A stretch of DNA of 64,000 nucleotides from contig OZ007582.1 in the NCBI GenBank assembly GCA_963931925.1, positions 34,720,469-34,784,468 on the forward strand, given 5' to 3'. Both the position numbers and the translations under genes were made by a program. The notes under the pieces are model-generated. The model searched no databases and had not been told where the DNA came from. It saw only the letters and a list, made by a program, of their open reading frames with translations. This DNA is from Onchidella celtica (taxonomy: Eukaryota; Mollusca; Gastropoda; Systellommatophora; Onchidiidae). Below, piece by piece: positions 31,716 through 59,984 of this stretch (its first letter is position 1; each line of letters starts with the position of its first letter).

Positions 31716-31718
31716 ATA

Positions 31719-39620: not shown

Positions 39621-41004
39621 ATCAGTTAAATAAGTCAGCGCGTTAGTATAGGCCTTATTTTGTGACACATGGTAGCCAGCTTATACGTGTTTCGTTTTTC
39701 TACCGGTAGCCCATGGACATGGACACAAAATTAGCGTGGGGCTACAAGCTGCGTTGTCTTGAAAATCTATGTGAAATGACCATGTTATTTCAGGTAAGAG
39801 TTGAGGACGTCCCAAGCAGTTGGAACTCTTGCAGTTCTTGGGAATATTTCTATGTGAGGCTATTTTGGGTTGAGGGTTTGCGGGCAGAATTTTTACCGAT
39901 TCACTACCACAAGCCGCTCTGCGCTGTCCGTCCGAAAAGCACCTAATTCAGATAGTACAAGAAAATTACACTGAGAAATAGTCTTTGTTTAATTACTAAT
40001 AATTTGGAATTTTACAACATTTCTCCGAAGCTCCGTTATAGCCATATCACTGATCACCGTCTTTCAAAGAAGACAATAATATGAGAACTCTAAGTCTTGT
40101 TCTCTGAAAGAAACTTGCTGGATGTGAATCAGTCGAGGGTTGGGGATAAGCTTAATAATAGATTAGGGAAGAGTTTGACAATGGACATTTCTATACAAAC
40201 GTCAACCTCAGGCCCAGAATCCTATCTAGAACGTATGTCATTTTTTAAAGGAAACACCATCCATACACTGAAATTGAGTATTAATTTGAAAGTCGCTCCA
40301 TGCAAAAGTAGAATAAAATCCATTCTAGTGGAATGTATCTAAAAGAAGCAACATTCAGCATCATTTTTTACGGTTCACTTTTTGCCATCTGGTGATATAA
40401 AATTCGGGTGCATACTGATTTATTCAATGCTTTTAACATCTTCGCATGCATCTATGTCAAGTTATTTAGTCTGAACATTTTGTGGCACATTCAGAATGTA
40501 ATTCTTTCATGTCAGTCCGTCAGGCTAAAAATTGTATTAAATGAAAGGTACACATCCCACACTTTTTTCCTCTACTTCCTCTGCCTACTGTCAACACTTT
40601 AAAAGCTTCGATAGCCATTTTACCTGTACAATGTATGTAAATTTCCTGTGGGAGAGAGTGACGGATTGACATATTTATGTGATGGGCTGACCGTGAAGGA
40701 CTGACATAACAATGACTAAGTACTCACCTCAACCTTTTGCGGAAAAAAGCCCAAGTGATTACAGTTGCTGATGCCTGGTTCAAGGAATGTAGACACACTG
40801 AAATGAGAAACTTTGCTTCTGTAACTTTATCATCAGGCAACATGATAAATATTGTGTATGCAAGAGGTCACGATTATATTTTGATATCTTTGAAAAAGCT
40901 GGAAAGAAGGTAAGATCCTAAGATATATTTGCAGGTCTACAGTTAGCGTCGTCATTGACTTAGCACTGAATGTCAGAAAAAGGTGACGAAATTAACATGC
41001 CGTA
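39621..41004. other. Intergenic
   Basis: No recognised gene. Frames at 39713-39946 (+) and 40097-40342 (+) lack a known domain. The last five bases, CCGTA, are the left target duplication of the following LTR. Confidence 0.45.
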
Positions 41005-42145
41005 TGTCACGAGCGAGTGAGCGAGGATCAGTAGTTACGAGAAGAGAGTTAGAATAAAGTTAACCCACGGGGTAAGGGAAAGCGTGCATGTGTGAGTAGG
41101 GGGGGGGGTCTGAATGAGGCGAGAGCGCTGTATTACTATCACTGCACACTAAGACGTCCTTAGAAAGCGGACGCAGCCCCAGAGGGCGAACATAAGGGGA
41201 GCAGTCGGAAGACTAGTGAGAGAGTTTTTTCCAGTGATGACTGGTAGGTGAAACGATGATTGATAATAGTTATGATTGATGTATTATATTCGTCTATGAC
41301 CATGATGTAAATAAGTATATGTGAGGAATGTGGAAGTCCTTGATACTGTACATAGCAATGTGCGCCATGGGCGATAGATGAAAGTTGAGTTCATGGATTT
41401 GTAGCGAGAGTGAGTATTGTGTACTACGGTGGAGGTGTGTTACCGTAAGATGTTTGGTGAGTGAAATGTGAACTATTGTGTGTATGCTTCATGAGTTGTA
41501 ATGAGGGTGAAGTGATTAGAAATGGTATGGTATTATACCAATGTAATGTTATTCTTGTAGGTGTCGGGGACGGGCCGAAGAGCCGCGTCGGTGAGCACAG
41601 GGGATAGGCCAGCATAGGGCCGAAGGCCACACATAGGCCAGGAGTGACGCTGTCGTGTAGGACAGTCGCAGCACATGAGTCGTGGCAGTCTGGCCACAGA
41701 CAGGGATGTATATATGCTTGTAATGTGCTATTAAGATGTACTACTGTGACATGGATGTATTACTGTGTGAATTGAAGTATTAACGTGTTATGGCCACGTG
41801 AAGTGTATAGGAGGCTAAGGTGTATTGCCATAGGGAGGCGCTATTGAGAGACTGTGGAGTGAAAGAATATTAGTGTGTCATTAAGACCCTGAGTGGAGAG
41901 GCTGAGGCCGAGGTGTCTTTAGAGTAATTACCGGGCTGTGGACCCGAGGAAGTGTGCTTACGGGAGAAGGCCGTGGACGGCAGTTTAATTAAGTGATCTA
42001 ACGTATGTCATTGCATTGTTATCTTTATATTTATGTTTAATAAATGTGTGAGTCTGATGGGTTGTTCTGTTAAGTGTTATACATGTTCGTTCGTGATTGT
42101 TGTCCTGTTATACTTATTACATCTCCCAGTCTGGGATTTGTGACA
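41005..42145. mobile_element. Solo LTR, family 1, copy 2 (1,141 bp)
   Basis: Same ends as 22483-23605 (TGTCACGAGCGAGTGAGCGA and CTGGGATTTGTGACA) and similar along its length, with the largest differences around 41720-41870. Flanked by CCGTA (41000-41004 and 42146-42150), a 5-bp duplication different from copy 1, so it is an independent insertion. AATAAA at 42039-42044 is at the equivalent position. No internal retroelement genes remain. Confidence 0.93.
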
Positions 42146-42252
42146 CCGTATGTCTAATTTTGGCACACCCTGAAAATAATATAAAGGCTGAGGTTTATTT
42201 GCGTATAATTTTGATCCTGATCTATTAAAGTTTCCGCCCACAAACTTTTCAA

Positions 42253-42650
42253 CAAAACAATTTTTAAAGGAATTTCAACTTAAAAAGGATGAAAAATACA
42301 TTGAATTAAAACTCATCTATCTGGCTTTCTGTGTGAGTTATTTTCAAATACGTGCGCTACATCGGCGCGACGCGCGGCGGTCCTTTCTTATGAGGGGGTC
42401 AAATCGGTGAGTGCGGCTCAGGGCGAAAACGGTAAGACTGTTTCTTGTTCAAGCAATAAAAACACATGGCTACACACATTAAACAATACAAAAGATAATA
42501 TACTTTGACAGAGAAAGAATTGAACTTTATTTTGATGTAGGATAGACGCCGTTTTACATAAACTCACAGCAGTAATAGCCTTGTAATGCTGGCCTAGAAT
42601 TCTGCCAAAACGGGAGTTTGCCCCTTCAGTGGGGCAGTTTGGACTACCTA
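42253..42650. repeat. Dispersed repeat family A, copy 2
   Basis: Counterpart of 14733-15117, ending in CAGTTTGGACTACCTA, which abuts a family-B element. Confidence 0.8.
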
Positions 42651-42652
42651 TT

Positions 42653-42873
42653 TAGAATGCCAGAGTTCTAACTCCTTTCCGTCAACTTTTGAGAAATCGA
42701 GGATTGAAGTTTCATGACTGTGCTCATAGCTTTTGGAGCAATAGTTTCTTTTGCTTTTAGTAATACTTACAAATTACACACCCCAATCTGCTTGATACTT
42801 TGAGAATGCCCGTAGAAGTGTGATGTGTCTAATTCAGTTCAGCCAAAAAGTGGAGGTAGAACCTTGTCATTCC
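42653..42873. mobile_element. TIR element, family B (221 bp)
   Basis: The left end AGAATGCCAGAGTTCTAACT and the reverse complement of the right end GGTAGAACCTTGTCATTCC match at most positions, giving imperfect TIRs. The body is shared with 21637-21878 (GTAATACTTACAAATTACAC). No coding capacity. Confidence 0.72.
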
Positions 42874-43685
42874 ATGATGACGAAGTGAAAAAGACGTTCT
42901 GGCATGCTGTCTTGTCTGGAAAAAGCAAGATTTAGAGCCTGCGGGACTTTGTGCACTGCGTAGTGGAAAAAAAAAACATACAGAAATAAATCTCTCGCTT
43001 TTAAAAACTGAGGAATTCGAGAATAAAATGATGTAAAGTGTGAGGGACTTCCAGCTGTGCAAAGTACTTGAAAGCTGCATTCCATAAAAGTTGTATCCAA
43101 CTTAAAAATAAAGTTTGCCAACTGTTGTACTGCACAAAAGCCCGAGTGGGCACTGCATGATTTTAAGAACTAGGTAGCATCAGAGGAGGTCCCTACTGAT
43201 GAAATGATATAATTATATGGTGTCCATGTTGCTGAAGACAAGAACTATGATGTCTATTGTAATCAAGTTTTTACAATGGTAGAGCGCTTGGCTTTGATAG
43301 TAAACTGGTTTGAAAATGAAACTTCTCAAATGAATTTGTCATTATGTGTTCCATTAGTGCCACCAAGTGATATGGGCACAAATCTTTTGTTTCTGAGACC
43401 TGTCACAATGAAAGAAAATGAGCCGTTGTCTCCAGATATGCTGTTGTGTTCAGACATGTCAGTACGTCACGCCATTCATGTCTGCCTGTCACTCATACAT
43501 TTCTGAGATTACTTATTGGGGAGTTTTTTTGTTGTATTTTTTTGACAAAATTAACGAAATTCCTGAGGAATATAGACTAGCATAGGTTTGTTGAAATATT
43601 TGAGTTTCACTTCCTTTCATTCACAAACAGGCTTGATTGCATGTTCTGAAATATCAGTCCGTCGCATATATGGAATTGCCCTGAT
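42874..43685. other. Intergenic with one unassigned short frame
   Basis: The frame 43276-43506 (+, 76 codons from ATG) has ordinary codon composition but no motif I recognise. The preceding sequence could carry it further upstream in pieces. It may be a fragment of an old transposon or an exon. Confidence 0.4.
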
Positions 43686-44299
43686 AGTTGTGGATGAGGT
43701 TAGGAATGGGTTTAATCATAAGTTTGGCTGGCGATAGGAACAGGTTGATCATAATTTTGGGTGGGGTTAGGAGCGGGTTTGATCGTAAGTTTGGATGGGG
43801 TTAGGAACGGGTTTGGTCATTAAGTTTGAGTGGGGATAGGAACGGGTTTGGTCATTAAGTTTGAGTGGTGTTAGGAACGGGTTTGGTCATAAGTTTGAAT
43901 GGTGTTAGGAACAGGTTCGATCATAAGTTTGTGTGGGGATAGGAACGGGTTCGATCATAAGTTTGAGTAGTGTTAGGAACGGGTTTGGTCATAAGTTTGA
44001 ATGGTGTTAGGAACAGGTTCGCTCATAAGTTTGAATGGTGTTAGGAACAGGTTCGATCATAAGTTTGTGTGGGGTTAGGAACGGGTTCTATCATAAGTTT
44101 GTGTGGGGTTAGGAACGGGTTTGATCCTAAGTTTGGATGAGGTTGGGAAAGTGGTTAATAATAGGTTTAGGTGGTGTTAGAAACGAGTTTGATCATAAGT
44201 TTGTGTGGGGTTAGGAATGGGTTTATAATAAGTTTGGACCGGCTTTGGAACCAGTTTGATAGGTTTGGATGGGGTTAGGAATGGTTTTAGAAATGAGAA

Positions 44300-45415
44300 A
44301 AAAATCAGGAATATAATCTATCACTGTGTGTGAGCTTTACCGATGATGAAAAAGCCATTGAACGTTTCGCAATTTTGGAGGCCCTGCGAAAAATCAATAT
44401 CAAGAAAGTTTGCGTAAAAATATTGCAACGTGTATATCAAGAAGCCTCTGCCAGAATCGACATCGATACCACGTGTCAGAAAAGTTTGTCATAGAAAAAG
44501 GAGCGAGACAGACAGACCCTATATCACCGAACTATTCACAGCAGCAATTGAAGAAATATTCAAAATGCCAAGCCCAGAAAATGCCATCAACATAGATGGA
44601 GAGTATCTGAAAGACCTGAGATTTGCGGGCGATGCAGCACATTGCCCGGGGAGCGTAGAACAGATGGAAACCAACCTGAATATAAAAAAAACAAACAGAG
44701 CAAGAAGGTTGGCCTGAAAATCCACACGTACAGAACAAAATACGTGACAAACTACGAGACAGATGAAAAGGTACAATTGAAAAGAAAACCATTGAAAATG
44801 TCACGGAATATAAATACCCATGCCAGACAAGACATACGGAACATAATATAAAAAACTGAAATGGATTAGAATATTAAGAGACGAATGGTGCTGCTTTAGA
44901 AAAACTTATTCCTGGACCACAAACTGCCAATGCCCCTTAAGAGACAAGTATTCAACCAGTGCATTATTCCAACGATTACCTATGGTAGCCAAACATGGTC
45001 GATTACAAAACAATTTGCGAACAAATTAAGAACTACCCAGAGGGTAATGGAAAGAAGAATGCTTGACATCAGACTACAAGGTGAAATCCCTCGCGCCGAA
45101 ATTCGCAAACAAACAAAGCTAACGGACATCATAAAATTCATTCTACAATAAAAGTGTAATTGGGCCGGACATGTGGAAAGGATGAATGACAATAGATGGA
45201 CTAAACGCTGCACTGAATGGCAACCACGGACAGGAAAAAGAACAGGAGGACGACCAGGAAGAAGATGGCAGGATGATATTGAAGATAGAGAGGTAACATG
45301 GATGACAAAGACATCAGACAGAAAGGAATGGCAATCATTGTCGGAGGGCTACATCCTGCAGTGGTTGGACAATGCCTAAGTGAAAAAGTTGAAAAGGATG
45401 AAAAAGAAACGGGTT
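44300..45415 (+). pseudogene. LINE reverse transcriptase C-terminal fragment, broken
   Basis: Several frames hold pieces of a LINE protein: AIERFAILEALRKINIKK, then a frame with EKGARQTDPISP (RT motif region), LRFAGDAAH where the FADD-like box has Gly, and PLKRQVFNQCIIPTITYGSQ, KLRTTQRVMERRMLDI, WAGHVERMNDNRW, GRPGRRWQDDIE, EGYILQWLDNA. The WAGHV/GRPxRRWxDD ending is typical of RTE-related and other endonuclease-type LINEs. Multiple stops and frameshifts make it dead. It ends in GATGAAAAAGAAA and lies within satellite monomers, so it is an insertion whose target duplication is blurred. Confidence 0.83.
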
Positions 45416-45784
45416 TGATAATAGGTTTGGATGGGGTTAAAAACGGATTTTATAATAGGTTTAACTGGAGTTGGCAACGGATTTAATATGAATTTGGATT
45501 GGGCTGGGTACGGATTTAAAAATGGATTTGGATGGGGTTGAGAACAGTTTAATAATAGGGTTGGATGGGATTAGGAATGAGTTTAATAAATGGGTTTGGA
45601 TCTGGTAAAAGGATTAAATAATGGGTTCGGATGGTGTTAGGGATTTAGTTTACTACATGTAATAAGTTTGGATGGGGTTAAGAACGGGTTTAATGATTTG
45701 GATGGGGTTAGGAACGGGTTTAATATGTTTGGAGAACAGGTGTAATGATATGTTTGGATGGGATTAGGGACAGGCTTAATAATA

Positions 45785-45861
45785 CTGCCATGCAAAGGCA
45801 GAGTGACATAACTGATGAGTTACAGAGACAGCACATACGTCGCTCTGCCTTTGCAGGGCAG
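45785..45861. repeat. Satellite hairpin 1
   Basis: Left arm CTGCCATGCAAAGGCAGAGT, right arm GCTCTGCCTTTGCAGGGCAG, about 25 nt of loop. Flanks place it nearest type B. Confidence 0.88.
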
Positions 45862-46414
45862 AATAGGTTTGGATCGGGTTAAGAATGGGTTAACCAATAT
45901 GTTTGGATAGGGTTAACAATAGGTTCATCAATGCGTTTGGATGGGGTTAATAACAGGTTTAATAATAGGTTTGGAATGGGTTAAGAACATACTTAGTAGT
46001 GGGTTTGGGTGGGGTTAATAACAGATTAAGAATATATTTGGATGCGATAAGGAAGGGTTTATTAAATAATAGGTTGGATATGGTTAAGAATGGGTTTAAT
46101 AACAGGTTTGGATGGGGTTAGGAACAGATTTAATAATAGCTATGGATGAGGTTAGGAACAGGTTAAATAATAGGTTTCGATGGGGTTAAGAATGAGTTTG
46201 ACAGTAGGTTAGTTCTTTGATGGGATCAGGAATGTGTTTAGTAACAATTTGGGGTAGGGTGAGGAATGGGTTTAATACATAAAATAGACTTGGATTGGGT
46301 AAGGTTTAATAATGTTTGGATAGGGTTAGAAGCGGGTTTGATAATAAGTTTGGACTAGGTTAAAAACACGTTTAACCATACGTTTGGAAAGGATTAGGTA
46401 CAGGTTTAATGATA

Positions 46415-46491
46415 CTGCCATAAAGAGGCAGAGCGACGTAATTGATAAAGTATGAATAGAGCACATACGACGCTCTGCCTTTGCACGGCAG
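46415..46491. repeat. Satellite hairpin 2 (type C)
   Basis: Left arm GGCAGAGCGACGTA, right arm GACGCTCTGCCTTTGCACGG. Downstream flank TTTCAATGGGGTTAAGAATG matches hairpins 6 and 12. Confidence 0.88.
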
Positions 46492-46953
46492 AATAGATTT
46501 CAATGGGGTTAAGAATGGTTTTGATAATAGGTTTGTATGATGTTAAAAAGAGGTTTAATGACAAATTTGAATGGGTTTAGGAATGAGTTCAAACGCAGAT
46601 TTCTATTGAGCTAGTTACAGGTTTAGTAATAAGTTTGGATACGGTTAAGAAGGGTTTAACTATAAGTTTGGACGTGATTAGGGATGGTTAAATAATAGCT
46701 TTGTGTGGGATTGGGACGGGTTCAATAATAGGATTGGGTGCAGTTAGGATTGTGTTTAATAATACTTTGAATGGTGTTAATAATGAACCGAATCACAGGT
46801 TCGGATTGGTTTAGGAATACGTTGGGTGAGTTATGAATTTGTTTGATAGTAGCTTTGGGTGGGTTTAGGAATGAGTTTAATTATAGGTTTGGACATGGTA
46901 AGGAATAGATTTAAGAATATTTTTGAATAGGGTTAGGGATAAGGTTAATAACA

Positions 46954-47021
46954 CTGTCATGCAATGGTAGAGCGACGTAACTGATAAAGTATAAAGAAAG
47001 CGTATACGTCGCCCTGCCTCG
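46954..47021. repeat. Satellite hairpin 3 (type D, right end lost)
   Basis: Left arm CTGTCATGCAATGGTAGAGC; right arm TACGTCGCCCTGCCTC then breaks off before the usual TTTGCACGGCAG. Confidence 0.82.
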
Positions 47022-47188
47022 AGAATTGATTTGGATCGGGTTAGGAATGGGTTTAATAATGGTTTTGTATGATGTTAGGAACGAGTTTAATGAAAGATTT
47101 GGACGGCGATAGGAATATATTTAATATTATGTTTGGATGTCGTTACGAATAGGTTAAGAATAGATAAGTTTGGGTGGGATTAATAATA

Positions 47189-47265
47189 CTGCCATGCAAA
47201 GGCAGATCGACGTAAATGATAAAGTATAAAGATAGCACATAGGTCGGTCGGCCTTTGCACTGCAG
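47189..47265. repeat. Satellite hairpin 4 (type A)
   Basis: The left arm carries GATCGACGTA instead of GAGCGACGTA; the right arm reads GGTCGGTCGGCC, keeping that position paired as a T-G wobble. Confidence 0.88.
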
Positions 47266-47730
47266 AATAGGTTTGAATGGTTTTAAGAAAAGGTTCAATA
47301 ATAGCTTTGGATGTGGTTAAGAACGGCTTTATTGATAACTTTGAATGGGGTTAAGAACGGGTTAAATGATAGATTTGGATTGAATTAGTAACAAACTTAA
47401 TAGATTCGGATGGGGTCAGGAACAGGTTTAATACTAAGTTTTAATGCTATTAGAATACGTGTGGTTTCGATTAGCACGGGTTTAGTAATAGACTTGGATG
47501 CTGTTAGGGTCGGGTTTAATAGCAGATTTGGATGAGGTTAGGAACAGATTAAATAGTAGGGTTGGATGAGGTTATTAGTAAATTTAATTTTAAGTTTGGG
47601 TGGGGTTATGAATGAGATCTTAATAGTAGGTTTGGATGGGGTAAGGAATATGTTCATTAATAGGTTTGGACATGGTTAAGAACAAGTTTAATAATACGTT
47701 TGGGCGAGATTAGGGATATGTTTAGTGACA

Positions 47731-47807
47731 CTGCGATGCAAAGGCAGAGCGACATAAGTGATAAAATATAAAAAGAGCACATACATCGCTCGCTCTTTGC
47801 CCGACAG
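47731..47807. repeat. Satellite hairpin 5 (type B)
   Basis: Arms GGCAGAGCGACATA and TACATCGCTCGCTCTTTGC. The ACGT centre of both arms is ACAT here. Confidence 0.85.
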
Positions 47808-48191
47808 AATAGGTTTCAATGGAGTTAGAAACATGTTTACTAATAGGTTTGGATGGGGTTAAGAATGGGTTTTATAACAGGTTTGGATGGAGTTAGGAAA
47901 ATATTTAATAGTAGCTTTGGATGAGGTTAGGAACTGGTTAAATAATAGGTTTCGATGGGGTTAAGAATGAATTTGACAGTAGATTAGTGTTTTGATGAGG
48001 TCAGGAATGTGTTCAGAAACAGTTTGGGGTAGGGTGAGGAATGGGTTTAATACATGAAATAGACTTGGATGGGGTAAGATTTAATTAAAGGTTTGGATGG
48101 GATTAGAAACGGGTTTAATAATAGGCTTGGACAAGATTAAAAACTTATTTAATCATAAGTTTGGATGTGATCAGGGGCAGGCTTAATGATA

Positions 48192-48268
48192 CTGCCGTGC
48201 AAAAGCATAGCGACGCATCTGATAAAGTATAAAGAGAGCATGTACGTTGCCCTGCCTTTGCACGGCAG
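48192..48268. repeat. Satellite hairpin 6 (type C)
   Basis: Arms CTGCCGTGCAAAAGCATAGC and GCCCTGCCTTTGCACGGCAG; the outer CTGCCGTGCAAA pairs perfectly with TTTGCACGGCAG. Confidence 0.88.
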
Positions 48269-48813
48269 AATACGTTTCAATGGGATTAAGAATGGTTTTG
48301 ATAATCGGTTTGTATGATGTTAAATAGATGTTTAATGACAAATTTGAATGGGGTTAGGAACGGGTTTAAAAACAGATTTCGATTGGTTTAGTAAAAGGTA
48401 TAATAATAAGTTTGACTGCGGTTAAGAATAGTTTAACAATAAGCTTGGACGGGATTAGAGATGGTTTAAATAAAAGCTTTGCATGGGATTAGTACAGGTT
48501 TAGTAATAGGCTTGGGTGCAGTTTGGATCGGTTTTAATAATACTTTTGGATGGTGTTAATAATGAACTGAATCATAGGTTTGGATGGGTTTAGGAATACG
48601 TTTAATAATACGTTGGGTGGGGTTATGAATGGGTTTGATAATAGGTTTGGGTGAATTTAGGAATGGGATTAATAAAAAGTTGGAAGGGATAAGGAATAGG
48701 TTTCATTACAGTTGTTTGGGTGGAGTTAGGACTGGGTTTAATAATAGGTTTGGACATCGTTAAGAACAGGTTAATAATAGATTTGGATGGGATTAGGGAC
48801 AAGTTTAATAACA

Positions 48814-48888
48814 CTGTCATGCATAGGTAGAGCGACGTAACTGAAAATATAAAGGGAGCATATACGTCGCCCTGCCTTTGCACGACAG
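48814..48888. repeat. Satellite hairpin 7 (type D)
   Basis: Arms CTGTCATGCATAGGTAGAGC and TACGTCGCCCTGCCTTTGCA, with a shortened loop. Confidence 0.86.
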
Positions 48889-49059
48889 AATAGGCTAGGA
48901 TCAGGTTAGGAATGGGTTTAATAATAGTTTTGTATGATGTTAGGAATTAGTTTAATGATAGATTTTGATGGCGCTAGGAACGTGTTTAATATTATGTTTG
49001 GATGTGGTTAAGAATAGGTATAGTAAGTTTGGGTATGATTAGTGACAGGTTTAATAGTA

Positions 49060-49136
49060 CTGTCATGCAAAGGCAGATTGGCGTAATTGATAAAGTATAA
49101 AGATAGCACTTCGGTCGGTGTACCTTTGCACGGGAG
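49060..49136. repeat. Satellite hairpin 8 (type A)
   Basis: Left GGCAGATTGGCGTA, right CGGTCGGTGTACC. Several changes are wobble-compatible, but one outer pair is lost. Confidence 0.82.
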
Positions 49137-49603
49137 AATAGATTTGGAAGGGTTTTAGGAAAAGGAAAGAATAGGTTTAGACGTGGTTAAGAACAGTTTT
49201 ATTGATAACTTTGAATGGGGTTAAGAACGGGTTTAATGAGAGATTTGGATTGAATTAGTAACAAACTTACTGGATGGGGTTAGGAAAAGGTTTAATACTA
49301 AGTTTTAATGCCATTAGAATGGGTTTAATAATACGTTTGGATGGGATTATCACGGGTTTAGTAATAGACGGATGCTGTTAGGGTCGGGTTTAATAGCAGG
49401 TTAGGATCAGGTTAGAAACAGATTAAATGATAGGGTTGGATGAGGTTATTGATTAGTTTAATTTTAAGTTTGTGTGGGGTTTATGAATGGGATTAACAAT
49501 AGGTTTGGATGGAGTAGGGAATATGTTTAATCATTGGTTTGGATATGGTTAAGAAAAGGTTTAATAATAAGTTCATGCGAGATTAGAGACATTTTTAGTG
49601 ACA

Positions 49604-49680
49604 CTGCCATGCAAAGGCAGAGCGACATAAATGATATAGTATAAAAAGAGCACATACATCGCTCTGCCTTTGCACGGCAG
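49604..49680. repeat. Satellite hairpin 9 (type B)
   Basis: Arms CTGCCATGCAAAGGCAGAGC and GCTCTGCCTTTGCACGGCAG, close to consensus, with ACAT in both arm centres as in hairpin 5. Confidence 0.88.
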
Positions 49681-50059
49681 AACAGGTTGCGATGGAGTTA
49701 GAAACATGTTTACTGACATGTTTGGATGGGGTTAAGAACGGGTTTAATAAATGGGGTTAGGAACATATTATTTTAATAATAGTTTTGGATGAGGTTAGGA
49801 ATTAGTTATATAATATGTTCCGATGGGGTTAAGAATGAGTTCGAAAGTGAGTTACTGTTTTGATGAGGTCAAGAATGTGTTTAGTAACAGTTTGGATTAG
49901 GGTGAGGAATGGGTTTAATACATGAAATAGACTTGGATGGGGTAAGGTTTAATAATATGTTTGGATAGGATTAGTAACGGGTTTAATAATAGGCTTACAC
50001 AATTTTAAAAACATGCTTAATGATAAGTTTGGTTGGGATTAAGGGCAGGTGTAATGATA

Positions 50060-50137
50060 CTGCCGTGCAGAGGCAGAGCGACCTAACTGATAAAGTATAA
50101 AAACATATAGTTACGTCGCTCTGCCTTTGCACCGCAG
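50060..50137. repeat. Satellite hairpin 10 (type C left flank, type A right flank)
   Basis: Arms are type C (GAGCGACCTA; TACGTCGCTCTGCC). Upstream flank is type C (TTAATGATACTGCCG); downstream flank is type A (GGGTTTAGGAAAAGGTTCAA and TTTTATTGATAACTTTGAAT). It is best explained as an unequal-exchange junction. Confidence 0.82.
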
Positions 50138-50456
50138 AATAGTTTTGGATGGGTTTAGGAAAAGGTTCAATAGTAGGTTTGGATGGGGTTAAGAACGGTT
50201 TTATTGATAACTTTGAATGGGGTTAAGAATGAGTTTAATGATAGATTTGGATTGAGTTGGTAAGAAACTAAATAGATTTGGCTGGGACCAGGAACAGGTT
50301 TAATACTAAGTTTTTAATGCCATTAAAATGGGTTTTATAATACGTTTGGATGGGATTAGCACGGGTTTAGTAATAGACTTGGATGCTGTTAGGTCGGGTT
50401 TAATAGCAGATTTGGATCAGGTGAGGAACTGATTAAATTTTTTAATAATAGGGTTG

Positions 50457-51699
50457 TGTCACGAGCAGAGTTAGGGTCTTGGGGAGCATTCGACTGCACG
50501 AGAGGCAGCTAACTCACACTCGGACACAACCACACAAGAAAAGTATTAAACAACTAGAGTATATATATATGTCAGGCCGGTCAGGCCATGTTTTACATAA
50601 TTATGAATAAACAAAATAAAAGACAATAGAGGTATATTCAAAGCAATAAATTCTAATTACTAACTTAATCTATGATATTTCATGTAATTATGGTTCCTTA
50701 TTGGATGTACTGCAATCAATAGCAAATAGGTCTATTATACGAAACTAGATATCAATTTAAAGTGACAGTTGAGTCGCCACTGGCCAGTCGCCAGGCAAAC
50801 TCTCCCTAAATCATATGGGCTTGAATGTTAGGAGAGCCCAGTACGTTCCAAGCCTACAGAAGCACACTTCGGCTTGTAGGTAATTACGCAGTTGCAAAAA
50901 AAACTATTTATATATATGCACAATCATTATTCAATTCATCAACAAAGTGCCATATTACTTCAATCATACTACGGAAATAATTCTATAACACAGGCCACTC
51001 GTCGAGTGCCAGCTGGGGTTTCCTTAGACTTCCTATGAGGCTGTGGTTCTCTCTCTATCTCTGATCTTCTATTATGCTTGAACTAATAAGATATATTACC
51101 ATTGGTCACGCCTACTGGTAGGCGCGAACATCAAAATAGCGCAGCGTGGGCTTTCAAAGGTCAGCCCACTCAGACCTTTCTTTCTAGAGCTCAGTCAGTC
51201 CGTTAGCAAGGACTTCTAGTCTTCAAACCACACAGTTCAGGTACTGGCCAACCGGAGATACTTCACGACACGATGCTTCTGCTCGTCTGTATTAACTAAA
51301 TCTGAACGTTACACGATGTTTTATACTATCTGGCTACCCAGCAGTGCTAGTCCGCTGGCCCAATTAGTTCAGCTATCTCATAGGTCGAAACCTCCCACCA
51401 TTTTAATTGTAGTAATACGTCTGCACTATTCTACCAGCCAGTTAACGTGCAAAAACTTGTCTAGTCATACTTAACAATGTCAACTATCCCCACCTTGTTT
51501 CACCCATACTCCATTACTTATTAATCACGAACATTAAAACCGACAAGCGTGCATCTAACAGTTTAACTTCACATTTATTTACTCACCAACTATAATTCGC
51601 GAGGGCCGTTCAAGGCCACCAGCCAATTTCTCATGGCCCTGATAAAACAACAACTCACTCACTCTCTGCGTGAGTTTTAACAACATCCGAATCATGACA
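50457..51699. mobile_element. Solo LTR, family 2 (1,243 bp)
   Basis: Starts TGTCACGAGCAGAG and ends AATCATGACA. It is flanked by GGTTG at 50452-50456 and 51700-51704, a 5-bp target duplication. The unoccupied version of this site, ATAGGGTTGGATGAGGTTAT, is visible in sister satellite units near 47558 and 49433. Beyond the first ten bases it does not match family 1, so it is a separate family. Orientation is undetermined. No protein genes inside. Confidence 0.92.
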
Positions 51700-51855
51700 G
51701 GTTGGAGGAGGTTATTAATAAGGTTAATTATAGGTTTGGGTGGAATTATGAATGGGATTAATGGTAGTTTTGGATGGGGTAAGGAATATGTTTAATAATA
51801 GGTTTGGGCATGGTTAAGAACAAGTTTAATAAAAAGTTTGGGTGGGATTAGGGAC

Positions 51856-51932
51856 CTGCCATGCAATGGCAGAGCGACATAACTGACAAAGTATAATGCG
51901 AGCAGATACATCGCTCTGCCTTTGCACGGCAG
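51856..51932. repeat. Satellite hairpin 11 (type B)
   Basis: Arms CTGCCATGCAATGGCAGAGC and GCTCTGCCTTTGCACGGCAG, ACAT in both arm centres. Confidence 0.87.
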
Positions 51933-52285
51933 AATAGGTTTCGATGGAGTTAGAAACATGTTTACTAATAGGTTTGGATGGGGTTAAGAACGGGTTTAAT
52001 AACAGGTTTGGACGGGGTTAGGAACAGGTCTAATGATAGGTTTCGATGGAGTTAAGAATGAGTTTGACAGTAGGTTAGTATTTTGATGCGGTCAAGAATG
52101 TGTTTAGTAGGAATTTGGGGTAGGGTGAGGAATGGGTTAAATACATGAAATAAGACTTGGATGGGGTAAAGTTTAATAATAGGTTTGGATAGCATTAGAA
52201 TCGGGTTTAATAATAGGTTTGGACAAGGTTGAAAACATGTTTAATTATAAGTTTTTGGAAGGGATTAGGTACAGGTTTAATGATA

Positions 52286-52364
52286 CTACCATGCAAAGGC
52301 AGAGCGACATAAATGATAAAGTATAGAAAGAGAGCACACACGTCGCTCTGCCTTTGCTCGGCAG
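52286..52364. repeat. Satellite hairpin 12 (type C)
   Basis: Arms CTACCATGCAAAGGCAGAGC and GCTCTGCCTTTGCTCGGCAG, two extra loop bases. Confidence 0.87.
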
Positions 52365-52919
52365 AAGAGGTGTCAATGGGGTTAAGAATGGTTTTGATAA
52401 TCGGTTTGTATGATGCTAAAAAGAGGTTTAATGACAAATTTCAATGTTGTTAGGAAGGGGTTTAAAAACAGATTTCGATTTGGTTAGTAACAGGTTTAAT
52501 AATAAGTTTGGAGGCGGTTAGGAAGGGTTTAAATAGAAGTTTGGACGGAATTAGGGATGATCTAAATAATAGCTTTGCATGGGATTAGGACAGGTTTAAT
52601 AATACCAATAGGCTTGGGTGCAGTTAGGATCGTGTTTAATAATACTTTTGGATGGGATTAATAATGAACTGAATCACAGGTTTGGATGGGTTTAGGAAAA
52701 CGTATAATAATACTTTGAGTGGGGTTATGCGTGGGTTTGATAGTAGGTCTTGTGTGGGTTTAGGAATGGGATTATTAATAAGTTGGATGGGAAAAAGAAT
52801 AGGTTTTATTCTTGGTTTGGGTGGAGTTACGAATGGGTTTAATAAAAGGTTAGTTTGGACATGGTTAGGTACAGGTGTAATAATATGTTTGGATGGGATT
52901 AGGGACAAGTTTAATAACA

Positions 52920-52995
52920 CTGCATGCAATGGTAGAGCGACGTAACTGATAAAGTATAAAGAGATCATATACGTCGCCCTGCCTTTGCACGGCAG
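52920..52995. repeat. Satellite hairpin 13 (type D)
   Basis: Arms CTGCATGCAATGGTAGAGCG and GCCCTGCCTTTGCACGGCAG. Confidence 0.86.
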
Positions 52996-53231
52996 AATAG
53001 GTTAGGATCGGGTTAGGAATACGTTTAGTGATCGGTTTGGATGCGATTAGGAATTAGTTTACTAATAGGCTTAAATGAGGTTAAGAATGAGTTTACGAAT
53101 AGTTTTGTATGATGTTAGGAACTAGTTTAATGACAATTTCAACGACAATAGGAACTTGTTTAATATGTTTGGATGTGGTTAAGAACAGATTTAATAATGA
53201 GTTTAGATGGGATTAGGGAGAGGCTTAATAA

Positions 53232-53306
53232 TGTCATGCAAAGGCAGATCGACGTATCTGATATAGTATAAGATAGCACATAGGTCGATCTGCCCTTGCA
53301 CGGCAG
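53232..53306. repeat. Satellite hairpin 14 (type A, compensated pair)
   Basis: Left GGCAGATCGACGTA, right TAGGTCGATCTGCCC. The G-to-T change in the left arm is matched by C-to-A in the right arm, restoring a T-A pair. Confidence 0.87.
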
Positions 53307-53785
53307 AATAGGTTTGGATAAGTTTAGGAAAATGTTCAATAATAGGTTGGATGTTGTTAAGAACGGTTTCATTGATAACTTTGACTGGGGTTAAGAACAG
53401 GGTTAATGGTAGATTTGGAGTGAGGTAGTCACAAACTTAATAGATTTGGGTGGGATTAGGAACAGGTTTAATAATAAGATTTAATGCCAATAGAATGAGT
53501 TTGATAATACCTTTGGATGGGATTAGCACGGGTCTTTTAAATAGACTTGGATGCTGTTAGGGTCGGGTTTAATAGCAGATTTGGATGAGATTAGGAACAG
53601 ATTAATTTCAATAATAGGGTTGGATGAGGTGAATAATTTTAATTATAAGTTTGGGTGGGGTTATGAATGGGATTAGTAATAGGTTGGGATCTGGTAAGGA
53701 ATAATTTATGTTTAATAATAGGTTTGGACATGGCTAGGAACAGGTTTAATAATACGTTTGGGATGAATTAGGGACAGGTTTAATG

Positions 53786-54079
53786 TCGCCACCATTCAAA
53801 GGCAAAGCGACATAACTGATAAAGTTTAAAGAGCACATATCGCTCTGGGAAGGACTTTCGAATGCGTTCCATAGCCCGAGTGAAAACAGATAGCTACCCC
53901 GGCGGCTTTCCCTGATATGTCAATCTGACAACTGCCCAGACGAATATCCGCATAAGGCCTCGATGATACAAACTGACTAGACCCTAACATCGTTATATAT
54001 CAATCTGACAATGCCTATGCACTTGTCGAGTTATGGAACGCGTTCGGAAGTCCTCCCTCGCTCTGCCTTAGCACGACAG
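53786..54079. repeat. Satellite hairpin 15 (type B), split by a TIR element
   Basis: Left arm GGCAAAGCGACATA; the right arm is broken inside TCGCTCTGCC by the insertion 53847-54057, which duplicated TCGCTCT. Confidence 0.85.
53847..54057. mobile_element. hAT-like MITE, family 3, copy 1 (211 bp)
   Basis: Left GGGAAGGACTTTCGAATGCG and the inverted right end GGGAGGACTTCCGAACGCG are TIRs that extend through GTTCCATA. Flanked by TCGCTCT (53840-53846 and 54058-54064), a 7-bp match where hAT elements give 8. The interior shares GATACAAACTGACTAGACC with the other family-3 copies. No coding capacity. Confidence 0.85.
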
Positions 54080-54157
54080 AATAGGTTTCGATGGAGTTAG
54101 AAACATATTTACTAATAGGTTTGGATGGGGTTAAGAACGGGTTTAATAACAGATTTG

Positions 54158-54359
54158 GGGAGGAGTACCTTACTCGAGCGCCACTTTCACTGTTATCAAT
54201 TTAAACACATGGAATGGTCAGATGGACCTGGGGGCGTGAGGGTCTAGTCAGTTTGTATTAATGGGCGGTAGTCAGATTGACTAATCAGGCGAAAAGGGGC
54301 TGGGGTAGTTGTGTTTAGTTAGTTTCTGGTCTTTGGCGCTTGAGTACGGAACTCCTTCC
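54158..54359. mobile_element. hAT-like MITE, family 3, copy 2 (202 bp)
   Basis: TIRs GGGAGGAGTACCTTACTCGA and, inverted from the right, GGGAAGGAGTTCCGTACTCA. Flanked by an exact 8-bp duplication CAGATTTG (54150-54157 and 54360-54367). The interior GGAATGGTCAGATGGACCTG and GTCTAGTCAGTTTGTAT are shared, in inverse orientation, with 58652-58936. The target is a satellite monomer. Confidence 0.9.
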
Positions 54360-54468
54360 CAGATTTGGATGGGGTTGAGAACCGAATTAGTAACTGGTTT
54401 GGGAGTGTTAAGAACTAGTTTAATAATAGGGGTTGGGATGGGATTAGGAAGGGTTTAATAATAGATTT

Positions 54469-55305
54469 GTTGTCAGGTCAGAAAAATCTGCTACTGGTAA
54501 CATGTAATCCAGTACAACCTGTTTCATGAACTGGTACGCTAGCATGGTATCAGTGGGCGTGCACCTGTCGGTGCAAACGGCCAGGGCGGAGGAGGTTTCA
54601 TCTAACCCAACGGCCACATGCTAGGGCACAATGTGACCCTCAGTATTTGAGTCCTTCATATTGGCCCCCGGTAGCGGTGTGGTCATAGGCTTGTTTGCCT
54701 AAATCACAGACGAAGAATTGAGCAAACTTCCCGGACGCAGCTTTGAAGCTGGCGTCAGCAGGCCAGTGGTTGATTGATAGGGCAGATGGCAATATACCGT
54801 CACTCTGGCCTGGATATCGTGACACAGAGCATCCACCAGTATTGGTGTTCTTTGGTTTGGGTCCTTCACCCTAGTCAGTTGGGACTGCGAGGCTGTGGAG
54901 TAGCCTACAGGCAGCCGGTCAGGCAATATGACTGTCCCTCTGGCATCCTCCTGCACCTGGATACATTTCCAGTCGTCTTGACCCTGTCTTGCCACTTGGA
55001 TAAGTTGTGTCCAGGCGAGAGAGTGAGTCTGATGTTTGCGCAGCTCTTTTTCACTAAAAACAAACTCTTTGCGCCAGTCTTAACACTCACCTCGTCTTCT
55101 TTCATCTTTGTCTCGTCTTCTTTCCTCTCAAAATTCCAACGGCGATGGGCGAGAGCGGTTATTTAAGGATAGCACTGCTCACCTCAACTGAGGAAGGGGC
55201 TAGAAAAGGTGCCCTAAAGAAAGCCCACTTCACATCACCCTGACTGGTATACCGCGACCAGTGGGGATCCCTTTTTGCGGTCGAAACAAAAAGAAATTCA
55301 GCTAA
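54469..55305 (+). promoter_or_regulatory. LINE 5' leader (putative promoter/UTR)
   Basis: About 840 bp before the endonuclease frame, within the element since it follows the target duplication. It includes a phrase ACGGCCAGGGCGGA also present in the leader of the RTE-like LINE (about 27968). The forward frame 54774-55166 has no recognisable domain. LINE leaders usually carry an internal promoter, but none is identified here. Confidence 0.5.
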
Positions 55306-58035
55306 CTCAGGCTAGGAGCCTGGAATATACGCACACTACAGGACAACTCAAACAACCCGGAAAGACGCACTGCACTTATTGCCATTGAGCTCAGCAGGTA
55401 CAACCTGGACATAGTGGCACTCAGTGAGACCAGACTCCCTGATAGTGGCCAACTCAAAGAGCTCAGTGGTGGATACACCTTCTTCTGGAAAGGCAAGGGT
55501 GCAGTCGAACCGAGACAGCATGGTGTTGGGTTTGCAATTAAAAATGACCTTGTCAGAAACTTGCAGTCCATGCCAATTGAAATAAATGACAGGCTAATGA
55601 CACTCAGGATCCCAGTTGGGAAAAGCCAGTCAGCCACCCTCATTAGCGCATATGCGCCCACCATGAAAAACCCAGATGAAGCCAAAGACAAGTTCTATTC
55701 TGATCTAGAATCTGTCATATGCTCTGGCCCGGCAGCTGATAAGCTGATTCTCTTGGGGGACTTCAATGCTAGGGTTGGCTCAGAAATCTCAGCGTGGCCA
55801 AATGTTTTGGGCCCTCATGGAGTTGGCTCATGCAATAACAACGGGTTGCGCTTACTTACTTTGTGCGCTGAATTTGGCCTGTTCATTACCAACACAAATT
55901 TTAGTCTCCCCGTGAGAAACAGAACGTCATGGATGCATCCCCGCTCAAAGCATTGGCATCTCATAGACTATGTCATTGTGAGGAAGACTGACAGAAAGGA
56001 TGTCCTTGTAACAAAGGCGATGTGTGGTGCCGAGTGTGGAACTGACCACAGACTCATTGTTTGCAAGCTCAGACTAACATTGAGGCGCAATAGACGCCCT
56101 CAAGGGAAAGCGCCACCTAAACGCCTAAATGTTTCAAAACTCTGCTCAGCTGAGAAACAGAGCGAGCTCTCATCAGAACTCTCCTCAAAATTGGATTGCG
56201 TGACTTTTGACCCTGAGAACATTGAACAGAGCTGGACTGACCTAAATACGACTGTACACTCTTGCGCCAGCAGCACAGTTGGTTTTCCTTTCCGCAAGCA
56301 CCAGGACTGGTTCAATGATAATGATAATGAAATCAAAGTGCTCATCAAAGAAAAAAATAGTCTCATCCAAGCTCACTGCAGTGACCCCTCTTCCACAGCA
56401 AAAGCTGATGCACTGCGTGCATGTAAGGGTGTACTCCAGAAGAAGCTGAGGAAAATGAAAAATGACTGGCTTGAAGAGCGAGTAAGAGAAACTCAGAAAT
56501 ATGCCGACACAAACAACACTAGAAAGTTCTTTGAGAGCCTCCGAGCTGTGTTTGGACCATCCCGCTGTGGCACTACGCCACTTCTTGCGTCAGATGGTTC
56601 AACACGCATTGTTGAATTGAATGCGATAATTCAGCGTTGGGCAGAACATTTCGGAGGTGTGCTAAATCGGCCATCAAATATAAATACTGAGTCCATTGAC
56701 CGCCTCCCTCAGACTCCTATTAATGCAGCTCTTGCCAAGCCATTCACAGCAAATGAGACCCGGACTGCCACAAATCAGATGTCCTTTAACAAATCACCAG
56801 GCGTGGATTCAATTCCTGCTGAGGTGTATGCCTTCGGTGGAGAAAAGCTTATTGAAAGGTTGACCGAGTTGTTCAATCATATGTTGAAAGCAGGGAAGCT
56901 GCCACAGGACTTCAAAGATGCTTCAATCATCCATGTGTACAAAAACAAAGGGGACAGCCAAGTCTGTGACAACCATCGGGGAATCTCCCTACTTTCAATT
57001 GCTGGCAAAATATTGGCAAGAATGCTTCTGAATCGCCTTCTTGATCACCTCTCGTCAAATGACTTGCTTCCCGAGAGCCAATGTGGCTTTCGTAAAGAGA
57101 GGGGAACGGCGGATATGATTTTTGCTGCCAGACAGATTCAGGAAAAATGCATGGAACAAAATAAAGCGCTGTATATCACATTTGTTGACCTCACAAAAGC
57201 ATTTGACACAGTGTGTCGTGAAGGCCTCTGGAAAATCTTGGCGAAGTTTGGGTGTCCACCCGAATTCATCACAATAGTGCGCCAGTTTCATGATGGCATG
57301 CAAGCTGCAGTCAAAAGCAACGGCAGTGTTTCAGAGCCCTTTGCTGTCACAAATGGGGTAAAACAGGGTTCCGTCTTAGCCCCAACTCTGTTCAGCATCA
57401 TGTTCTCTGCAATGCTACAAGAAGCCTTTAGCTCTCCTCCTCAAGGGGTAAGCATCAAGTACCGAACTGATGGCAGTCTATTCAACCTCAGGAGACTTCA
57501 GGCAAAAACCAAAACCAAAAGTACTCAAGTCTGTGACCTACTATTTGCTGATGATTGTGCACTTCTGGCACACGATGAGGATAGCATGCAAAACTGTGTT
57601 GATAAGTTCTCTAGTGCCTGTGACAACTTTGGCCTCACAATAAGCACAAAGAAGACGGAAGTGCTCCATCAGCCTACTCCAGACGACAAGTATCCTGTGA
57701 CCCCAAATATCAAAGTCCATGACAGTCTTCTGAAGGTGTCGGAGAACTTCACCTATCTTGGCAGTACACTGTCTTCCACGGCTCGTGTTGATACTGAAAT
57801 TCCCTCAAGAATCAGCAAAGCCAGCTCTGCATTTGGCAGGCTTCGAAAGAGAGTGTGGGATGTTGCCGGCATTCGCACAGACACTAAGCTGAAAGTGTAC
57901 AATGCTGTGGTCCTTCCCACCCTACTCTATGGGGCTGAAACCTGGACAGTGTACCAATCGCATGCCAGAAAACTAAATCACTTTCATCTGGCCTGCCTTA
58001 GAAAGATCCTAAGGATCAAATTAATGGCAGGATAA
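55306..58035 (+). CDS. LINE endonuclease-reverse transcriptase, main frame
   Basis: A 909-codon open frame (from just after a TAA at 55303-55305 to the TAA at 58033-58035). The true start is unclear: the frame is already coding at residue 5, and no ATG precedes it within the frame. APE-like endonuclease: AWNIRTL (5-11), SETRLP (~40), GVGFA, GDFNARVG (151-158), HWHLIDYVIVR, and GTDHRLIV with catalytic His near 248. Reverse transcriptase: FNKSPGVDSIPAEV, NHRGISLLSIAGKIL (from 556), ESQCGFRKERGTADMIF, FVDLTKAFDTV with palm Asp628, NGVKQGSVLAPTLF, and LLFADDCALL with Asp749-Asp750. The thumb follows (TYLGSTLSS, LPTLLYGAETWT, LRKILRIK). All catalytic residues I can identify are present. It stops early because of a frameshift and normally continues into the next frame. 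Confidence 0.92.
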   Translation, partial: LRLGAWNIRTLQDNSNNPERRTALIAIELSRYNLDIVALSETRLPDSGQLKELSGGYTFFWKGKGAVEPRQHGVGFAIKNDLVRNLQSMPIEINDRLMTLRIPVGKSQSATLISAYAPTMKNPDEAKDKFYSDLESVICSGPAADKLILLGDFNARVGSEISAWPNVLGPHGVGSCNNNGLRLLTLCAEFGLFITNTNFSLPVRNRTSWMHPRSKHWHLIDYVIVRKTDRKDVLVTKAMCGAECGTDHRLIVCKLRLTLRRNRRPQGKAPPKRLNVSKLCSAEKQSELSSELSSKLDCVTFDPENIEQSWTDLNTTVHSCASSTVGFPFRKHQDWFNDNDNEIKVLIKEKNSLIQAHCSDPSSTAKADALRACKGVLQKKLRKMKNDWLEERVRETQKYADTNNTRKFFESLRAVFGPSRCGTTPLLASDGSTRIVELNAIIQRWAEHFGGVLNRPSNINTESIDRLPQTPINAALAKPFTANETRTATNQMSFNKSPGVDSIPAEVYAFGGEKLIERLTELFNHMLKAGKLPQDFKDASIIHVYKNKGDSQVCDNHRGISLLSIAGKILARMLLNRLLDHLSSNDLLPESQCGFRKERGTADMIFAARQIQEKCMEQNKALYITFVDLTKAFDTVCREGLWKILAKFGCPPEFITIVRQFHDGMQAAVKSNGSVSEPFAVTNGVKQGSVLAPTLFSIMFSAMLQEAFSSPPQGVSIKYRTDGSLFNLRRLQAKTKTKSTQVCDLLFADDCALLAHDEDSMQNCVDKFSSACDNFGLTISTKKTEVLHQPTPDDKYPVTPNIKVHDSLLKVSENFTYLGSTLSSTARVDTEIPSRISKASSAFGRLRKRVWDVAGIRTDTKLKVYNAVVLPTLLYGAETWTVYQSHARKLNHFHLACLRKILRIKLMAG

Positions 58036-58489
58036 AATTCCAGACACTGAGGTCCTCAATCGTGCCAAGGAATTGAGCATCTTCTGCCACCTGAAAAAAA
58101 TTCAGCTACGTTGGGCAGGACATGTCAGAATGCCCGACTCCCGACTCCCTAAGCAAATCTTCTTCTCTGAGCTCTCCAATGGAACGAGGAATGTTGGGGC
58201 CCCAAAGAGACGTTACAAAGACACTCTCAAGCAATCACTGAAGGCCTTTGCCATTGATGTGAGTGAGTGGGAAAAGCTCTCGCTTGACCGTGCAAATTGG
58301 AGGGCGGCCCTTACCAGAGGCAGCAAAGCATGGGAAGCTGACAGAGTCCAGCAGGCTATCAAAAAAAGAGAACGGCGCAAGAAAAGGCCCAGTGGTACTG
58401 AACCAACGGAGCACTCTTGTCATTTATCCGGAAGGGTCTGCAGGGCAAAAATAGGACTTATCAGTCACATGAGAAGCCATAAGTCATGA
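58025..58489 (+). pseudogene. LINE C-terminal segment, displaced by frameshift
   Basis: The protein continues in the +1 frame from about 58025, beginning WQDKIPDTEVLNRA, then LKKIQLRWAGHVRMPDSRLP, KRRYKDTLKQSLK, SEWEKLSLDRANWR and ending HSCHLSGRVCRAKIGLISHM RSH at the stop 58487-58489. The ending resembles the Cys2His2-type finger of these LINEs, with Cys and His-X3-His visible but one expected Cys apparently Ser. Four extra bases around 58021-58024 would account for the shift. A sequencing or assembly error is also possible. Confidence 0.85.
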
Positions 58490-58651
58490 AAGAACAGTCT
58501 TTCCATTCTGTCCTCTGTGTCCTTTAGTTCTCTTTATTGTCCATGTGTTGAAATTCTCAACAATTTCTGTTCTTTATTCCTCTGGTGTTGTTAAGGTCAT
58601 CATCATACCTGATGGACGAACTATTATTATTATTATTATTATAATAGATTT

Positions 58652-58936
58652 GGGAAGGTCTTCCGCCCGTCCGCGCCAGTCAAGAAAACACAACTACCCC
58701 AGCCCCTTTTCGCCTGATTAGACAATCTGACTACCGCCCATTGATACAAACTGACTAGACCTTCACGCCCCCAGGTCCATCTGACCATTCCAAGGGAGGT
58801 CTTCCCCCCGTCCGCGCCACTTACCAAAAAGTTAAACATTCCAATGCAGGTTGTTTAAGCTTATATCTTAATCGTATTATGTTTGTTAACGTTTTGGTAA
58901 GTGGCGTGGTCGGGGGGGGGGGGGCGGATGACCTCC
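58652..58936. mobile_element. hAT-like MITE, family 3, copy 3 (285 bp)
   Basis: Flanked by ATAGATTT (58644-58651 and 58937-58944), an 8-bp duplication. TIR-like ends GGGAAGGTCTTCCGCC and, inverted, GGAGGTCATCCGCC. A second internal end (GGGAGGTCTTCCCCCCGTCC at about 58794) suggests a composite of two related elements. It contains a G run of 13-14. The LINE to its left duplicated the MITE's own left flank, so the LINE came later. Confidence 0.85.
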
Positions 58937-59286
58937 ATAGATTTGGGTCGGGTTAGGGAGGGGCTACCTTTTTTTGCTCTGTCACTCTCTTTCTTATTTA
59001 CTCTTTAATGGACTTCTGACGTTTCTGTTTCCGATTCCACACATAAGAAAACACGGCTTTAGTTTGATAAAAACTAAGATTTCAGATCGTAACCAGCATT
59101 TTACAACTTTGCCGTACGCTTCAACTGTGTCCTCAGCCTAAAATTCTCACTTAAACAGTTCTTGATTCTCCGGTTTTCCAGATAGAGCGGTCATTAGCAC
59201 AAAACATTTCAGAGAAAATTCACAGATGCTTTAAACAAAAACTCTCAATGAACAGTTTGCCATGGCGGCCTACATTTCGTGACGTT
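58937..59286. other. Short satellite remnant then intergenic
   Basis: Begins with one satellite monomer (ATAGATTTGGGTCGGGTTAG) and then leaves the array. Nothing else recognised. Confidence 0.6.
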
Positions 59287-59511: not shown

Positions 59512-59641
59512 CAAGTCACGATTTCCCATCTGGTCTGGGACTACGACAAACTTTACACTGGCCTACCTAGATCTAGATCTATCAACATGGACGAATCCGC
59601 AGCAATTATCAAATCAATACTAGATCTAGAAATAAAATCAC

Positions 59642-59954: not shown

Positions 59955-59984
59955 GAAAGCACATGCATGAACTTGCCTTGTAGA

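Follow-up and report, generated by a model that had tools for sequence, protein, structure and literature searches.

A 77-bp hairpin in a satellite array of Onchidella celtica: a probable foldback passenger inside a large dispersed unit

Introduction

Is a palindrome that recurs throughout a satellite array retained because it serves a function, or has it merely been copied together with the array? This question is raised by a 34-bp satellite of the gastropod Onchidella celtica which is punctuated by copies of a 77-bp hairpin. The stretch that was analysed, referred to as the window, comprises 64,000 nucleotides of contig OZ007582.1 (assembly GCA_963931925.1). A first-pass annotation, made from the sequence alone, had considered either a functional hairpin or a foldback element incorporated into the array and co-amplified with it. 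We found that the hairpin satellite is probably best explained as a co-amplified foldback passenger of the array within a large dispersed unit. The scale and the order of this dispersed unit around the satellite were the unexpected part.

Results

The hairpin satellite in the window

By iterated nhmmer (E 0.01), 15 copies of a 77-bp imperfect palindrome were detected at 45785-54079, all in a single orientation within the 34-bp satellite, and no further copies were found in the window. This agrees with the first-pass annotation, which had reported about 15 hairpins of four types here. Thirteen of the 15 copies are near full length; the copy at 46954 lacks part of its right end and the copy at 53789-54079 is split by a later insert. 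The satellite and its hairpins are:

43686..54474, + strand: 34-bp satellite, interrupted at 44289-45407, 50459-51698, 53848-54057 and 54165-54364
45785..45861, + strand: hairpin X0, not part of the A-D units; resembles the other types in its left flank, right flank at background
46415..46491, + strand: hairpin B1
46954..47026, + strand: hairpin C1, right end partly lost
47189..47265, + strand: hairpin D1
47731..47807, + strand: hairpin A2
47731..49603, + strand: one complete A-B-C-D unit
48192..48268, + strand: hairpin B2
48814..48888, + strand: hairpin C2
49060..49136, + strand: hairpin D2, pairing mostly lost
49604..49680, + strand: hairpin A3
50060..50137, + strand: hybrid hairpin, left flank B, right flank D
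51856..51932, + strand: hairpin A4
52286..52364, + strand: hairpin B4
52920..52995, + strand: hairpin C4
53231..53306, + strand: hairpin D4
53789..54079, + strand: hairpin A5, split by a hAT-like insert (53848-54057)

The hairpin consensus is 77 nt long with 26-bp arms that pair at all positions except one, so that it is a nearly perfect palindrome. As in miniature inverted-repeat transposable elements (MITEs) or foldback elements, inverted repeats make up most of a short non-coding element. When folded as single-stranded DNA, 12 of 13 window hairpins were better than all 200 shuffles (z -4.07 to -9.33). The hairpin at 49060 folded no better than its shuffles (z -0.50; 50 of 200 equally good).

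A phase map against one unit showed generic monomers up to ~45700 followed by hairpin X0, then from ~46065 to ~54164 the repeated part of the satellite with the order B-C-D-A-B-C-D-A-(B/D)-A-B-C-D-A, and generic monomers again after ~54164. The consensus of the A-D unit has 1882 bp and consists of 46 monomers and four hairpins (11+16+5+14 monomers). Units are 0.855 identical at equivalent positions versus 0.69 between random monomers, as is characteristic of a higher-order repeat. The unit length of about 1.86-1.87 kb given earlier is matched by most spacings of like hairpins (A2-A3 1873 bp, C1-C2 1860, D1-D2 1871, B2 to the hybrid 1868) but not by B1-B2, which are only 1777 bp apart.

Two hairpins had to be reassigned. 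The first one (45785) had been taken as type A, but its flanks disagree with this. Its left 68 bp are 0.793 identical to the left flanks of the other hairpins versus 0.703 (standard deviation, SD, 0.055) to in-phase blocks elsewhere, and its right 68 bp are at background (0.726 versus 0.715 for such blocks). The copy at 50060 had been counted as an ordinary member, but it carries B-type diagnostic sites up to ~50119 inside its right arm and D-type sites from ~50147. Its left flank is of type B and its right flank of type D, so that the third unit is a deletion form from which the B-to-D part has been removed.

Hairpins across the genome

The host genome (1,140,862,475 bases, 43 contigs) was searched with a 28-base pattern of the inner part of the hairpin. 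There were 246 matches within three mismatches and none with the reversed control. The 100 matches listed of these 246 form 49 clusters on 16 contigs, and a preference for contig ends was not supported (48 clusters, Kolmogorov-Smirnov P 0.70). Twenty stretches of 6 kb were read, chosen among the best-scoring matches, a choice which may favour array members. All 20 loci contained 34-bp arrays, and all 108 hairpins lay in these arrays or within 100 bp of them. The random placement of a common dispersed MITE, named earlier as an argument against a special role, was therefore not seen. Orientation was identical in all 105 scorable hairpins, three of the 108 being too short.

For typing, 105 genome hairpins of at least 65 bp clear of the locus ends were used (119 together with 14 from the window). 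Among these, one type B hairpin per locus was present in 16 of the 20 loci. With B as anchor and types assigned by spacing, C came next in 14 of the 16, followed by D in 12 and by A at 530-600 bp in five; a further type, E, was situated 782-865 bp upstream of B in nine of the 16. At two loci, L021 and L022 on contigs C18 and C12, two hairpins at spacings of 288 and 406 form a 694-bp repeat that is locally amplified and unlike the repetition in the window.

Conservation of the hairpins and pairing of their arms

The hairpins had appeared better conserved than the surrounding monomers. This impression arises because non-equivalent positions were compared, at which hairpins of different type in the window are 0.81 identical and random monomers 0.69; to this extent the claim holds. 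At equivalent positions it does not: hairpins B-D of units 1, 2 and 4 are 0.861 identical and non-hairpin columns 0.855 (excluding the first 300 alignment columns, X0 not being type A). When the A position was counted as well, hairpin/non-hairpin values for the three pairs of units were 0.826/0.858, 0.870/0.851 and 0.845/0.856, on both sides of equality. Since equivalent hairpins diverge like the non-hairpin columns, the hairpin copies of the window are younger than the spread of the monomers, not better kept.

The same was found between loci for type B, compared at 17 places (16 genome loci and the window, represented by B2 with B1 and B4 left out). Hairpin identity was 0.869, that of the left flank 0.849 and that of the right flank 0.846; 77-column windows of the flanks had a mean of 0.855 and a maximum of 0.870. 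The difference between hairpin and flank was 0.022 (95% interval -0.014 to 0.057) and between arms and flank 0.018 (-0.025 to 0.059). The arms (0.864) were no better kept than the inner part (0.879). Within these intervals, the arms diverge as fast as the monomers, and the hairpins have drifted about as quickly as the DNA around them since they were dispersed.

In the window, pairing of the arms within a copy was 0.806 versus 0.808 and 0.800 with the arms of other copies (P 0.27), and in a separate count the number of paired cells was matched by 89 of 500 shuffles. Among 103 distinct hairpins of 72-82 bp there was no arm covariation: pairing within copies was 0.8358 versus 0.8350 after shuffling (332 of 1000 shuffles as high), with seven double compensations where 5.8 (SD 2.2) were expected. 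By neither a known family nor covariation does the hairpin qualify as a structured RNA. Candidate ribozymes and microRNAs were rejected, as nothing reached the gathering threshold; the microRNA matches scored 19.8-31.1 bits at cut-offs of 47-100.

Insertion and spread within the array

The hairpin types interrupt the monomer at one point, with GGTTTAATAATA typically on the left and AATAGGTTT on the right, compared with GGTTTAATAATAGGTTT in the plain monomer. A 4-bp AATA-like sequence that is single in the plain monomer is thus present on either side of the hairpin, although, with one site common to all copies, this counts as one observation of a possible target duplication. In the 105 genome hairpins of at least 70 bp (20 loci), AATA is present on the right in 84, and AATA, GACA, AACA or GATA on the left in 80.

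We compared the flanking monomers of the four window types, numbered outward from the hairpin. Monomer -2 is 0.838 alike among the types versus 0.696 for all monomer pairs (P 0.0002). Monomer -1 (0.789, P 0.019) is not significant after correction for ten positions, monomer +2 is weak (P 0.027), and monomers from the third onward show no clear likeness. Flank consensuses of the genome loci (5-16 loci per type) gave a likeness between types of 0.919 for the hairpin, 0.896 for -2, 0.868 for -1 and 0.775-0.870 for the remaining eight flank positions.

Because of the inverted repeats and the 4-bp AATA-like duplication relative to the plain monomer, the palindrome may be regarded as a fossil MITE-like foldback element that was inserted once into one monomer of the 34-bp array. 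A module of roughly two left-hand monomers and the hairpin would then have been copied around the array by ordinary unequal exchange or conversion, since the flanks are shared among the types. In the window copy the stretch B-C-D-A would have been amplified in tandem, giving rise to the apparent higher-order satellite, and one A-D unit would later have lost its B-to-D part through an exchange at a hairpin.

A giant dispersed unit around the array

Colinearity, interrupted by insertions, links the window with three contiguous 38-kb stretches (contigs C9, C17 and C14), and these stretches with one another:

22099..62911, + strand: window part of the large unit, colinear with C9, C17 and, from 27043, C14

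The matches reach from ~22.1 kb (C14: 27.0) to 61-62.9 kb of the window, and their order is disturbed solely at two small repeats at 30.5 and 34.5 kb. The C17 stretch can be aligned with C9 and with C14 over about 73% of its length in each case, and with the window over 48%. Outside the array, identity averages 0.868 over 610 windows aligned in all four copies. A same-strand match to another locus was obtained for 18 of the 20 right array flanks compared and for nine of 12 left ones. Even the first interruption of the satellite is not private to the window copy, as its portion from 44634 on is also found in other copies of the large unit. The array is thus an internal part of a giant dispersed unit, and the A-D repetition is a local amplification in the window copy. 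The earlier description as a higher-order satellite applies to the window copy; elsewhere the hairpin series belongs to this much larger unit. An autonomous giant transposon would be expected to encode a transposase, integrase or polymerase common to its copies. No shared long open reading frame (ORF) was recognised by eye among the ORFs of at least 110 aa in the three 38-kb stretches, and no known RNA family reached the gathering threshold in 12 fetched loci.

Marker sequences were used to follow the unit further. Each marker search scored 40 candidates, and the places used were part of the matches: the 39 long ones of 41 and of 43 (for the former, the pair count also included the row of the window itself), 28 places from 124, and for further markers 13 or 15 long matches of 40, six of 47 and eight of 55. 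Hairpin places were the 100 listed of the 246 matches, with one per cluster (49) in spacing counts. At these listed places, 85 pairs of marker and hairpin lay within 40 kb, and in every one the hairpin was downstream on the strand of the marker; pairs are not independent loci. The right marker was situated 17.0-22.9 kb downstream of 12 of the 49 hairpin clusters without a contrary pair, and the 34000 and 32400 markers were joined to the right marker in 20 of 78 cases with one contrary pair. The 19200 marker was joined to the next markers at six of 15 places and the 14900 marker at four of six. We conclude that the left limit of the unit is at or beyond 19200, perhaps 14900, and that the right limit lies beyond the window. 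The region 4200-4900 is not counted in the unit, being linked at just two of eight places. Some copies of the unit may lack the array, since a listed hairpin lies downstream at only 19 of the 39 places of the 34000 marker.

The copying of the unit could be due to a giant non-autonomous mobile element or to interchromosomal segmental duplication. A tentative suggestion, which we hold to be doubtful, is that such a mobile element of 38 kb or more, perhaps exceeding 55 kb, is non-coding and has been copied whole, together with its satellite arrays, so that it now occupies tens of places on 16 or more contigs, with hairpin edges serving as exchange points.

Within the unit, a block of ~280 bp (35610-35888) is 95% identical to the C17 copy, and its windows average 0.96-0.98 among the four copies versus the mean of 0.868. 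At ~35901-36045 there is a palindrome with 69-nt arms that are 94% complementary; it is absent at the same point of C17, as for a MITE-like insertion with an empty site.

Other elements in the window

A stretch resembling a long interspersed nuclear element (LINE) separates the array from the next part of the large unit (59189):

54475..58489, + strand: LINE-like stretch

Position 54475 is the end of the array and not a proven boundary of the LINE. An ORF of 909 codons (55306-58035) encodes endonuclease and reverse transcriptase domains; that this frame is open suggests a recent LINE.

The inserts at 53848-54057 and 54165-54364 have inverted ends and 8-bp flanking duplications (TCGCTCTG; AGATTTGG), and from the length of these duplications we take them to be hAT-like. 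Of the second insert, 107 bp recur at 58686-58792 and at 59816-59922. The 1.24-kb insert at 50459-51698 starts with TGTCA, ends with TGACA and is flanked by a 5-bp duplication (GGTTG), like a solo long terminal repeat; an 88% identical inverted copy is found in the C17 stretch. Far to the left, at 7548-8184, a 77-bp repeat of 8.3 copies with 100% matches is situated inside an otherwise diverged 74/77-bp array, which is either a very recent amplification or an assembly artefact.

Discussion

We considered three alternatives to a passenger. Selection could keep the hairpin structure, for instance as a replication pause, a hairpin RNA or a protein site. The good folding of 12 of 13 copies, the nearly perfect palindrome of the consensus and the greater likeness of hairpins than of flanks between types would fit, as would the slightly lower divergence of the window arms (9.4% versus 13.0% for the inner part, Fisher P 0.088). 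But equivalent positions show no excess conservation, the arms of type B diverge no less than its inner part, covariation is missing in 103 copies and the window has no Rfam family at the gathering threshold, so that selection on the structure, and with it the functional hairpin proposed earlier, appears very improbable. Several independent insertions of a mobile element that always targets the same site of the 34-bp monomer would account for the one target phase with AATA-like 4-mers on both sides and for right flanks that in single copies are no more alike among the types than random monomers. The types, however, have monomer -2 in common, 35-68 bp away and thus more than a target motif needs, and all 105 scorable copies have one orientation; repeated insertion is for this reason quite improbable, although less so than selection. 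Finally, the hairpins could be preferred points of unequal exchange that built the series and still rearrange the array. At the 50060 copy the B-to-D switch occurs within ~29 bp at the right edge of the hairpin, and a scan of the window and 15 genome loci against L018 as reference, leaving out L028, L029, L030 and L034, gave phase jumps at 21 of 42 scorable hairpins versus 14 of 333 sites elsewhere. In unit 4 the longest exact repeat (25 bp) and two of the four repeats of at least 20 bp fall in hairpins. Grouped by eye, however, eleven of the 21 jumps are X-left/E-right, possibly an effect of the single reference copy, eight are A-left/C-right (L016, L021, L022, L023), one is in L017 and one is the B/D jump of the window. 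Counted as events, three or four at hairpins stand against about five elsewhere, which is no clear excess. Among exact repeats of 14 bp or longer, one of 13 in unit 1 and two of 22 in unit 2 fall in hairpins, which make up 15% of the array length. Preferred exchange at hairpins is accordingly unlikely, if the least so of the three.

Several observations also weigh against a passenger that was inserted once and co-duplicated. In single copies the types are hardly more alike than background on their right side (+1, P 0.13; +2, P 0.027), and simple co-duplication would not predict a weak right side. Flank position +5 reaches 0.870, about equal to -1, so that only -2 clearly stands out, and between types the hairpins (0.906-0.919) are more alike than any flank position. 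The covariation score of 14 window copies was matched by just eight of 500 shuffles, a result not reproduced in the larger set. We found no autonomous relative of the palindrome. One match in viral contigs and six in prokaryote genomes were obtained with an 18-mer from the arm, about the chance level by estimate, and these were discarded as relatives; two further patterns gave no matches in viral contigs. Of the 100 listed matches, 11 are without a listed neighbour or marker; the one that was read (L030) is an array, and ten were left unread. Nevertheless, we consider the foldback passenger the likely explanation. That a foldback element joined the array and was co-amplified, as the first-pass annotation had offered as its other possibility, is supported by the one monomer phase between AATA-like 4-mers, the one orientation and the shared monomer -2. 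The array and its hairpin series belong to a very large unit that is apparently non-coding and recurs at many places of the genome, for which colinearity is the evidence. The hairpins show no sign of a special job, and any role in replication, small RNAs or recombination would most probably be incidental.

What looked like a functional satellite hairpin thus becomes a traceable passenger, and the hairpin series can serve as a barcode for the copying, dispersal and local amplification of the array. If it is true that the surrounding unit is mobile, its size and the absence of recognised genes raise the question by what means tens of kilobases of non-coding sequence are copied from one chromosome to another.

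As judged by titles and the openings of abstracts, with partial coverage, we found no description of the hairpin series or the large unit in the literature. In higher-order repeats of the alpha-satellite type, divergent monomers are grouped into a repeated multi-monomer unit. The A-D repetition resembles these in its organisation, but there are about four units, ~85% alike, and as far as seen only in the window copy.

Related structures are known from other animals. The Cg_HINE elements of the Pacific oyster are reportedly short. They are non-autonomous Helentrons in which short satellite-like arrays lie in dispersed units (PMC7492417). The likeness extends to the constant orientation of the tandem arrays relative to conserved left and right flanks and to the occurrence of palindromes, one being located in the right flank, while subterminal inverted repeats mark modules. 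In Onchidella, by contrast, several palindromes are situated inside each array, and the colinear unit, the ends of which were not reached, comprises at least 38 kb. Helentrons of this kind are characterised by subterminal inverted repeats, a 3' palindrome and insertion that leaves no duplication. Links between MITEs and satellites have been reviewed for Xstir and miDNA4 in Xenopus (PMC12628747; PMC9659126). Xstir repeats are proposed to derive from the inner sequence of a MITE, and the miDNA4 MITE is proposed to have captured a tandem repeat. As in our case, a short element with inverted repeats is united with a tandem array into one repeated structure; in Onchidella, unlike Xenopus, it is the array that appears to have received the foldback element.

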